34,707 bases of DNA from Thermoplasmata archaeon. Lineage in GTDB: Archaea; Thermoplasmatota; Thermoplasmata; Lutacidiplasmatales; UBA184. Below the pieces are notes generated by a model, which saw only the letters and a list, made by a program, of their open reading frames with translations, did not search any database and was not told where the DNA came from. This document shows, in pieces, positions 752 through 3,069 of the stretch. The stretch lies in NCBI GenBank assembly GCA_030040915.1, contig JASHSI010000050.1, positions 1 to 34,707 of the forward strand. The letters are read 5' to 3'. Made by a program: the position numbers and the translations under genes. Position 1 is the stretch's first letter; the number at the start of each line of letters is the position of its first letter.

Positions 752-1408
752 ATGGTCGTCAAGCGCCAGTGCTCGTTCTGCGCCGGCGAGATCGAGCCCG
801 GGACCGGGACGCTCTTCGTCAAGCGCGACGGCACGGTCTTCCAGTTCTGCTCCTCCTCCTGTCGGAAGCAGCAGCTCCATCTGGGCCGGGTCGGCCACCG
901 ACGGAAATGGACGCAGGCGTACAGCCAGAAGCGCGCGGCCGAGCACAGCGCCGCCATCGCCCGAGGCCGGGCCGCCGCCCCTTCCTCGGCCGCCGGGAAG
1001 CCGTCCGGGACGGCGCGGTCGGGGGCCCCCAAGGCACCGGCCCCCGCGGCGGCGCCGGCGACCCCTAAGCCCGAGGGTGCGACCCCATCGGCGCCCCCCG
1101 CGATCTCCCCGCCCTTGGCCCCGGCCCCCGCGGCCCCCGTGACCGAGAAGAAGGAGGCGCCCGCTACCCCCCGCCCGAAGCCCGCCCCCAAGGCGGAGTC
1201 GAAGCCCGCTCCATCGGCGAAGTCCACCGCCCCTTCCGGCGAGGGGAAGGAGACCTCCGACGCGCCCGCGAAGAAGTCCGCAGAGAAGAAGCCCGCCGCC
1301 GAGGGCGAGGAGAAGCCCGCGGCGAAGCGCCGCCCCGCGAAGAAGTCGGACGAGACCAAGGCCGCCAAGGACGACGCGAAGGCCGACGCCCCGTCCGGAA
1401 AGCCGTAG
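752..1408 (+). CDS. rpl24e: Ribosomal protein L24e with long Ala/Pro/Lys-rich C-terminal extension
   Basis: N-terminal CSFCAGEIEPGTGTLFVKRDGTVFQFCSSSCRKQ zinc finger of L24e; about 150 aa low-complexity tail. Confidence 0.9.
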   Translation: MVVKRQCSFCAGEIEPGTGTLFVKRDGTVFQFCSSSCRKQQLHLGRVGHRRKWTQAYSQKRAAEHSAAIARGRAAAPSSAAGKPSGTARSGAPKAPAPAAAPATPKPEGATPSAPPAISPPLAPAPAAPVTEKKEAPATPRPKPAPKAESKPAPSAKSTAPSGEGKETSDAPAKKSAEKKPAAEGEEKPAAKRRPAKKSDETKAAKDDAKADAPSGKP

Positions 1409-1481: not shown

Positions 1482-1760
1482 ATGCCCCCGCCCTCCGCCC
1501 CGTCGGACGTCCCGTGGGTCTCCGCGAGCGACCTCGCCGAGCAGGTCTACTGTCCTAGGGCCCTCTGGTACCGGCACCATCCGCCGGACTTCCCGGCGTC
1601 CGGCGCGGCGGAACGCTCGGCCGAGCGGGGGGCGCGCTACCACGCCCGCGCCCTCTCCGCCGTCCAACGCCGCGAGTCGATCGGGCCGGCCCTTCCCTTG
1701 GCGCTCCTCCTCCTCGGGCTCCTCCTCCTCGTCGCCCTCCTGCTGTCGGGAGCCGTGTGA
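1482..1760 (+). CDS. N-terminal part of a split Cas4-like protein (Fe-S Cys motif plus C-terminal TM helix)
   Basis: SASDLAEQVYCPRALWYR resembles the N-terminal YCPRxxYY Cys motif of Cas4/RecB-family nucleases; C-terminal hydrophobic stretch LPLALLLLGLLLLVALLL; GTGA overlap with next ORF. Confidence 0.55.
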   Translation: MPPPSAPSDVPWVSASDLAEQVYCPRALWYRHHPPDFPASGAAERSAERGARYHARALSAVQRRESIGPALPLALLLLGLLLLVALLLSGAV

Positions 1761-2287
1761 TCGCGCTCCCCTCGGAGGTCGATCTCCTCCTCGCGCTCCT
1801 CGGGCTCGCCCTCGTCGCGGCCGGCGCGTGGAGCTTGAGGAACTGGCTCGTCGGCCGGCACTACGGCACGCTCGAGTACGCCGACACCGGCGACCGGATC
1901 GACCGCGCCCTTCGCGCCCCCCGCTACCGCCTCTCGGGACGGCCCGATGAGCTCCGTCGCCTCCCCGACGGGCGTCGGGTGCCCGTGGAATGGAAGAGCA
2001 CGGCCGGCCCGCCGCGGGGTCCCCATCCGTCCCACCGCGCGCAGGTCCTCGCCTACTGCCTGCTCGTCGAGGAGGCGAGCGGCCGCGCCCCGCCGTTCGG
2101 GGTGCTGCGCTACTCGGACGGGGCCGAGTACCGGATCCCCTGGGACGGGAGCACGCGGGAGGAGGTCCTCCGGCTCCTCCGGGAAGTGCGACGGCCCTAC
2201 GACGGGCGGGCCACCCCGACCGCCGGAAAGTGCGCCCGCTGCCGATGGGCGGCCGGCTGCGACGCGCGGATCGACCGAGCGGCCTAG
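1757..2287 (+). CDS. Cas4-like PD-(D/E)XK nuclease core with N-terminal TM helix
   Basis: GRPDEL...VPVEWKS (D, ExK), HRAQVLAYCLLVEE (QxxxY), C-terminal CARCRWAAGC (CxxCx5C); N-terminal VDLLLALLGLALVAAGAW. Confidence 0.65.
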   Translation: MIALPSEVDLLLALLGLALVAAGAWSLRNWLVGRHYGTLEYADTGDRIDRALRAPRYRLSGRPDELRRLPDGRRVPVEWKSTAGPPRGPHPSHRAQVLAYCLLVEEASGRAPPFGVLRYSDGAEYRIPWDGSTREEVLRLLREVRRPYDGRATPTAGKCARCRWAAGCDARIDRAA

Positions 2288-3069
2288 ACGCGGTGCGAGA
2301 GGAAGACCTCGCAGACGTAGGGGAAGTCGACGGCCCCCCGCCCGCGGGTCTCCGCCGAGGAGTCGAGGAGTTCCTCCACGGCGCGCCGGACCCCGAGGCG
2401 TCGCTCCTCGGGGAGGAGGCCGATGAAGCTGACGGAGAGGGCGCGTTCGGCGACCTGCTCCCGGGTCAGGCGGTGCACGAAGCGGAACTCCTCCCGGACG
2501 AGCGGAGCGAACCCGACGCCGGGGCGGAAGGCGCTCCTCCAGGCGCCGCCGGACGTCCTCGGGGTGTCGCCCCGGAACTGCTCGAGGATCCGTCCGAACC
2601 CGGCGACCCACCGGATGGATTCGTCCCGGCGGTTCCACACGAGGCCGACCCGGCCGCCGGGCCGGAGCACTCGGTGGAGCTCGGAGAGCGTCGGTTCGGG
2701 GCGGAACCAGTGGAACGCCTGGCCGGCGACGACGGCATCGGCGGACGCCGCCGGCCGCGGGATCCGCTCGGCCGTCCCCCGAAGCACCCGGACCCCGGGC
2801 AGCTCGCGGCGAAAGACCCTCCGCATCCCGAGCATCGGCTCGACCGCCCGGATCCGGGATTCCGACGGGAGGAGCGCCCGGGTGAGCTTGCCGGTCCCCG
2901 CGCCGAGCTCGATCACGTCGGCGCCCGGTGCGAGCTCGAGCTCCTCGACCAGGCGGGCGATCGCCTCGGCGGGGTAGTCGGGGCGGCTCCGCTCGTAGAC
3001 CTCGGCCACCCGGCCGAACGCCTGGACCGCCGGGTGGACCGTCGATCGGGGGCGGGTCGCTCGGACCAT
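2284..3069 (-). CDS. Class I SAM-dependent methyltransferase
   Basis: [16 protein letters not shown] motif [30 protein letters not shown]. Confidence 0.87.

Follow-up and report, generated by a model that had tools for sequence, protein, structure and literature searches.

The window analysed here, the whole stretch of 34,707 nucleotides from a Thermoplasmata archaeon, contains two overlapping genes whose products are probably translated separately and form the two subunits of a single Cas4/Dna2-type Fe–S nuclease anchored in the membrane, a housekeeping enzyme that acts independently of CRISPR. The first gene (ORF1, designated nucN; 1482..1760; positions are on the + strand unless otherwise stated) has an ATG start and encodes the 92 amino acid N-terminal half of the Cas4-like nuclease, and the second (ORF2, designated nucC; 1757..2287) has a GTG start and encodes a 176 amino acid protein comprising a transmembrane (TM) helix and the PD-(D/E)XK nuclease core. 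The stop codon of nucN and the start codon of nucC overlap in the sequence GTGA (1757..1760), an arrangement that would couple the two ORFs, and a Shine–Dalgarno (SD)-like GGGAG (1748..1752) lies 4 nucleotides upstream of the nucC start.

The features of Cas4 proteins include a RecB-type PD-(D/E)XK core with D, ExK and QxxxY motifs (PMC12538437), and such a core is present in the pair. The nucN product carries the first predicted Fe–S ligand, Cys24 (in YCPRALWYR; codon at 1551..1553), identified by sequence and alignment, as was the putative metal-binding residue His54 (in GARYH; codon at 1641..1643). The latter belongs to a RecB motif-I GxxxH (G50-ARY-H54) that did not figure in the earlier description of this DNA; the matching stretch of Cas4 aligns in PDB chain 7mi4. 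The nucC product contains catalytic motifs II and III, running from GRPD (Asp64) to VEWK (Glu78, Lys80) (1937..1996), the QxxxY motif within H93-RAQ-VLAY100 (Q96 and Y100; 2033..2056) and three further predicted Fe–S ligands in C159-x2-C162-x5-C168 (2231..2260). The GRPD-to-VEWK residues are invariant or nearly so throughout the family, as are the positions of C159, C162 and C168 in homologue alignments. Alignment of 25 homologues from archaea and Chloroflexota showed complete invariance for the ORF1 cysteine, for G and H in GxxxH, for G, P and D in GRPD, for E and K in E-x-K, for Q and Y in QxxxY together with the preceding H, and for the three C-terminal cysteines. With Cys24 and His54 on one protein and the remaining ligands and motifs on the other, the Fe–S site and the catalytic site are both divided. 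The sequence-only reading had proposed a 1+3 division of the cysteines, and this holds (C24 on ORF1; C159, C162 and C168 on ORF2): the Cas4 hallmark of one N-terminal and three C-terminal cysteines is found only when both proteins are taken together.

Further evidence that this is a predicted Cas4-type nuclease, as had been claimed, comes from profile searches. ORF2 matches the Pfam families PDDEXK_1 (3.9e-8) and Cas_Cas4 (6.4e-5) and the NCBIfam cas4 family TIGR00372 (E 8.9e-12, 45.2 bits against a curated cut-off of 65 bits), which together with the conserved motifs bears the claim out. ORF1 matches TIGR00372 weakly (E 0.0032) through residues 14–62, covering the first 47 cas4 positions only, and the PADLOC Cas4 profile at 4.7e-4. 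Pfam recognised none of the ORF1 copies (75–90 amino acids) from the three lineages tested.

Each ORF encodes one hydrophobic TM segment, called in the window pair by Kyte–Doolittle hydropathy alone, and the membrane location suggested earlier is upheld on this basis. Helix 1 lies at the C-terminal end of ORF1 (residues ~70–88; 1689..1745; 19-residue mean 3.0), with Lys/Arg on its N-terminal flank and the stop codon following it, and helix 2 occupies approximately the first 25 residues of ORF2 (1760..1834; best hydropathy window at residues 2–20), with an Arg-rich C-terminal flank. Across the four groups of organisms with the split form (described below), the mean number of Lys/Arg residues is 2.3–3.9 in the 15 residues before TM1 and 4.1–5.0 in the 15 residues after TM2, whilst these residues are almost absent at the junction, which consists of a few residues only. 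That Lys/Arg lie on the soluble side of both segments predicts a hairpin with the soluble parts of the proteins in the cytoplasm, and the chain break is predicted to sit at the outer tip of this hairpin.

Structural modelling is consistent with assembly of the halves. For a fused archaeal homologue, the AF2 model was of moderate quality (pLDDT 75.3, pTM 0.67) and its best fold matches were to Cas4. The split arrangement was modelled on the Chloroflexota pair L259, rather than on the window pair, with the in-frame stop read as Gly to give one chain. This tethered model (pLDDT 93.5, pTM 0.88) matches Cas4 (8d3l) over its full length (266–272 columns, TM-score 0.64–0.65 by target length) and also matches Dna2, AdnB and ACE1. 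A PDB sequence search with a profile of the fused family returned Cas4 chains only. The earlier suggestion that the halves assemble thus gains support from the tethered Chloroflexota pair, whose model is Cas4-like over its full length. In the proposed complex, the TM helices of ORF1 and ORF2 would form a hairpin whose outer loop is very short, and the soluble parts of the two subunits, both on the cytoplasmic side, would jointly reconstitute the whole fold, so that neither half is expected to be active alone.

The split is a fixed property of the window's own family (here f1), in which all 68 distinct orthologous loci with both halves are split, at one break position and with a constant relative frame (−1). 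Both halves are under purifying selection: pairwise f1 comparisons gave a median omega of 0.24 over 32 pairs for ORF1 and of 0.20 over 34 pairs for ORF2. Whole-genome searches of 61 relatives recovered an ORF2 homologue from 54, some of these matches being to a separate 275 amino acid paralogue. The window genome itself (G000) encodes a second Cas4-like protein on contig C63 (L305:2519-3344), of ~275 amino acids, encoded by a single ORF and without the TM hairpin; it is a different protein.

Beyond f1, the split form is found in two other archaeal families, f34 (14/14 genomes) and f45 (all 15 distinct loci examined), and in the Chloroflexota, where a match to the nuclease half was seen in 94 of 301 sampled genomes. 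Thirty Chloroflexota loci were examined, 24 of which have a recognisable upstream N-terminal half, and all 24 are split. Most other Thermoplasmatota encode a single fused protein (L111-L138, L147-L150, L159-L170). Hydropathy analysis of 44 fused loci gave four TM helices in 26, two in five, eight in six (L132-L134, L150, L162 and L163) and an odd count in seven, where one helix is probably near the threshold. In the four-helix forms the TM hairpin is apparently repeated internally, and the TM insert within the Cas4 fold of the fused homologues appears to be expandable. An alignment of highly mixed homologues contained no stretch conserved enough for scanning.

The trees relating split and fused forms were unrooted, and changes between the two were counted without direction. 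In a tree of 87 archaeal sequences, f1 lies apart from f34 and f45, giving two split/fused changes, but a single split clade is not rejected (AU p 0.56). With the Chloroflexota added, the best topology has one split/fused branch (support 92/86), with f1 grouping with the Chloroflexota (88/67) and f34 with f45 (98/90). Independent origins of the split, implied by the two changes in the archaea-only tree, were accordingly set aside once the larger tree required one only.

What might the pair do? In the window, nucN lies downstream of the gene for ribosomal protein L24e (752..1408; Pfam Ribosomal_L24e 4e-16), and nucC is followed by a convergent class I methyltransferase gene (2284..3069, − strand; Methyltransf_11 3.6e-16). 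Of 20 f1 loci, 15 have L24e and ndk close to the pair and 12 have the methyltransferase there. The methyltransferase was considered as a partner and left out of the unit, because it is on the opposite strand and was not found in the other eight loci. Two further observations concern these neighbours: the stop codons of nucC and the methyltransferase gene overlap by 4 bases (2284-2287), and the 218 amino acid L24e product has a normal L24e domain (residues 5–65) followed by a long Ala/Pro/Lys-rich tail.

Neighbours in the other split lineages include genes of chromosome maintenance. In f34, smc, a gene in the kleisin position, nucN, nucC and tyrS are found together in 14/14 genomes, and most of those with long flanks also have fen1 and radB nearby on the opposite strand; identification of the kleisin-position gene as ScpA was supported by neither Pfam nor NCBIfam, and is based on its position and a DPW motif. 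The Chloroflexota loci, many of which have short flanks, show nadK in 20 of 40, a translin-like gene in 15, ssb in 11 and recN in a few. The translin-like gene lies upstream of the pair (L259:5024-5659, L264:5037-5678), and its match to Pfam Translin in L264 is below the cut-off (5.2e-4); NCBIfam PRK14562 names it 'haloacid dehalogenase superfamily', which looks like a misnomer. Nine fused archaeal loci are flanked by glmS and a gene encoding a TPD-motif (CDIN1-like) nuclease, the latter upstream of the fused protein (L111:8021-8803 and eight other loci; Pfam TPD 3.3e-43). Judged from gene neighbourhood only, the pair may act at the membrane on chromosomal DNA, processing its ends, flaps or branched structures. 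Housekeeping DNA processing is more likely on these grounds than CRISPR adaptation or defence, with the qualification that neighbours differ between lineages and that the ribosomal neighbours of f1 are little informative.

The best surviving alternative places the pair in defence or DNA entry: tethered to the membrane, the nuclease would degrade phage or plasmid DNA as it comes in, with no part for CRISPR. Its Cas4-like sequence, its predicted position at the membrane facing the cytoplasm and matches to the PADLOC Cas4 and DruK profiles would suit such a role, but the PADLOC matches reflect only Cas4 and PD-(D/E)XK homology, and the patchy occurrence of defence genes is not seen here: the housekeeping neighbours are conserved and most genomes of the lineage carry the pair. 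We regard this alternative as unlikely, and the defence function floated in the sequence-only reading finds no support in the neighbours, which are ribosomal genes, smc, ssb, recN or genes for tRNA synthetases.

Somewhat less probable again is that nuclease activity has been lost and that the proteins form a membrane-bound Fe–S or DNA-binding scaffold that retains the fold. It is unusual for an enzyme to have its active site divided in this way, and the activity of the family is so far putative. Set against this, the H, D, E, K, Q and Y residues vary little or not at all between archaea and Chloroflexota, as expected of a retained active site.

That the pair serves CRISPR adaptation as an accessory Cas4 whose genes lie away from the array seems to us very improbable. 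The profile similarity to cas4 and the presence of Cas1 in the window genome, on a separate contig (C2), are compatible with it, but Cas1 was found in only 4 of 23 genomes at genus level whereas the pair is present in most, including genomes more than 90% complete without Cas1 (for example G002, G018, G019 and G022). Of the 37 relatives in the wider set, only 9 yielded a Cas1. A link to CRISPR was therefore rejected, since Cas1 presence does not track the pair. In the window the neighbourhood is ribosomal and neither cas1 nor cas2 is adjacent to the pair, so the CRISPR independence originally proposed agrees with the location of the genes, with Cas1 elsewhere in the genome and with the failure to find it in most relatives.

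The sequence-only reading had also raised the possibility that a −1 programmed ribosomal frameshift joins ORF1 and ORF2 into one TM-hairpin protein. In favour of this, the relative frame in f1 is always −1, fused homologues exist in most Thermoplasmatota and the SD-like GAGGTGAT before the f45 junction resembles known SD-stimulated frameshifts. To examine the junction, we scanned from −25 to +3 of the end of the ORF1 stop for ATG or GTG in the ORF2 frame, using out-of-frame windows as a control. Such a codon is present in 63 of 68 f1 loci (93%) compared with 16% of control windows; starts preceded by an SD no shorter than 4 bases are found in 62% of f1 loci (6.7% of controls), and by one no shorter than 5 bases in 26% (1.3% of controls). 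No conserved slippery heptamer was found when junctions were inspected by eye. The relative frame of the halves is −1, 0 or +1 in f34 and in the Chloroflexota, with frames 0 and +1 seen in f34, f45 and the Chloroflexota, and in three Chloroflexota loci (L285, L286 and L297) a separate ORF of 215–266 amino acids lies between nucN and nucC. Varying frames and intervening ORFs exclude frameshifting as a general mechanism, and within f1, where the frame is constant, the conserved ORF2 start and SD make it unlikely; overall there is scant room for it. By contrast, the original description of two translationally coupled genes is sustained by the GTGA overlap and the conserved start of ORF2.

Two features of these junctions deserve mention. 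The ORF between the halves in L285 and L286 (Chloroflexota) is conserved, ~215 amino acids in length and HEAT-repeat-like by eye. In f45 (L081-L094, L109; for example L085 and L089), ATA is found as a start-like codon in a 4-base overlap (ATAG or ATAA) in 10 of 15 loci, often preceded by GAGGTGAT as a strong SD, with TTGA or ATGA at this position in the remaining loci. A conserved ATA start, if true, would be unusual.

The draft state of the window's metagenome-assembled genome (181 contigs, 85% complete) raises the question of whether faulty assembly or sequencing created the split. The comparative data refute this: the identical break in 68 distinct f1 loci, its occurrence in single-contig f34 genomes and the conserved start codon and SD at the junction leave this explanation with a negligible likelihood.

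How does the pair, taken as two separately translated subunits, compare with known systems? Among its closest relatives in kind is Cas4 (TIGR00372, PF01930), which takes in the solo-Cas4 proteins SSO0001 (4ic1) and Pcal_0546 (4r5q) and the type I-C Cas4 8d3l. Cas4 gives the best PDB matches by both sequence and fold, and shares with the pair the PD-(D/E)XK core, RecB motifs, QxxxY and one N-terminal plus three C-terminal cysteines. Unlike Cas4, the pair has a TM hairpin between motif I and the core and, in the window lineage, is made up of two polypeptides encoded away from cas genes. A Cas4 domain outside cas loci is the mark of solo-Cas4, and the pair displays it; characterised solo-Cas4 proteins, however, are single soluble polypeptides rather than two ORFs with a TM segment each. 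The fused Thermoplasmatota membrane Cas4-like protein is a direct homologue with the same motifs in the same order, but is one polypeptide with mostly two, four or eight TM helices, compared with 1+1 in the pair. The L259 model aligns over its full length with Dna2 (5eax, 5ean) and AdnA–AdnB (7sjr, 6ppu). In Dna2 and AddB/AdnB, as in the pair, Fe–S ligands flank the nuclease, but the pair lacks a helicase, is membrane anchored and is divided. The Argonaute-associated Cas4-family protein ACE1 (9iab, 9iac) and MGME1 are also fold matches; neither is known to be membrane-embedded or split. Across its two proteins the pair shows the family motifs, but neither a single soluble chain nor an association with a cas locus. 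Solo-Cas4 was described in a phylogenomic analysis of Cas4 from 2017 in which the words 'transmembrane' and 'split' do not appear (PMC5704561), and a literature search of open-licence papers found no description of a membrane or split Cas4.

Current annotation would hide such a system, since ORF2 alone is scored as Cas4 in some lineages and ORF1 goes unrecognised by Pfam. Against the TIGR00372 cut-off of 65 bits, two fused homologues (72.6 and 73.5 bits) and the ORF2 proteins of f45 (77.1) and the Chloroflexota (66.7) score above, and that of f34 (61.6) below. Those that pass may be annotated as CRISPR Cas4, and a passing ORF2 from f45 or the Chloroflexota represents only half of the protein.

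Taking these results more broadly, we tentatively suggest, as an idea with appreciable but less than even prospects, that the pair represents a widespread and undescribed two-subunit membrane nuclease, split once or ancestrally and common to several archaeal lineages and the Chloroflexota, that is dependent on assembly and acts alongside the SMC-type chromosome machinery in processing DNA at the membrane. The division of the Fe–S site and catalytic centre over two membrane proteins would, on our proposed reading, make activity depend on assembly at the membrane. If true, this would be a Cas4/Dna2-type nuclease with a built-in need for membrane assembly, and a Cas4-like enzyme tied, in two phyla, to chromosome maintenance instead of CRISPR.
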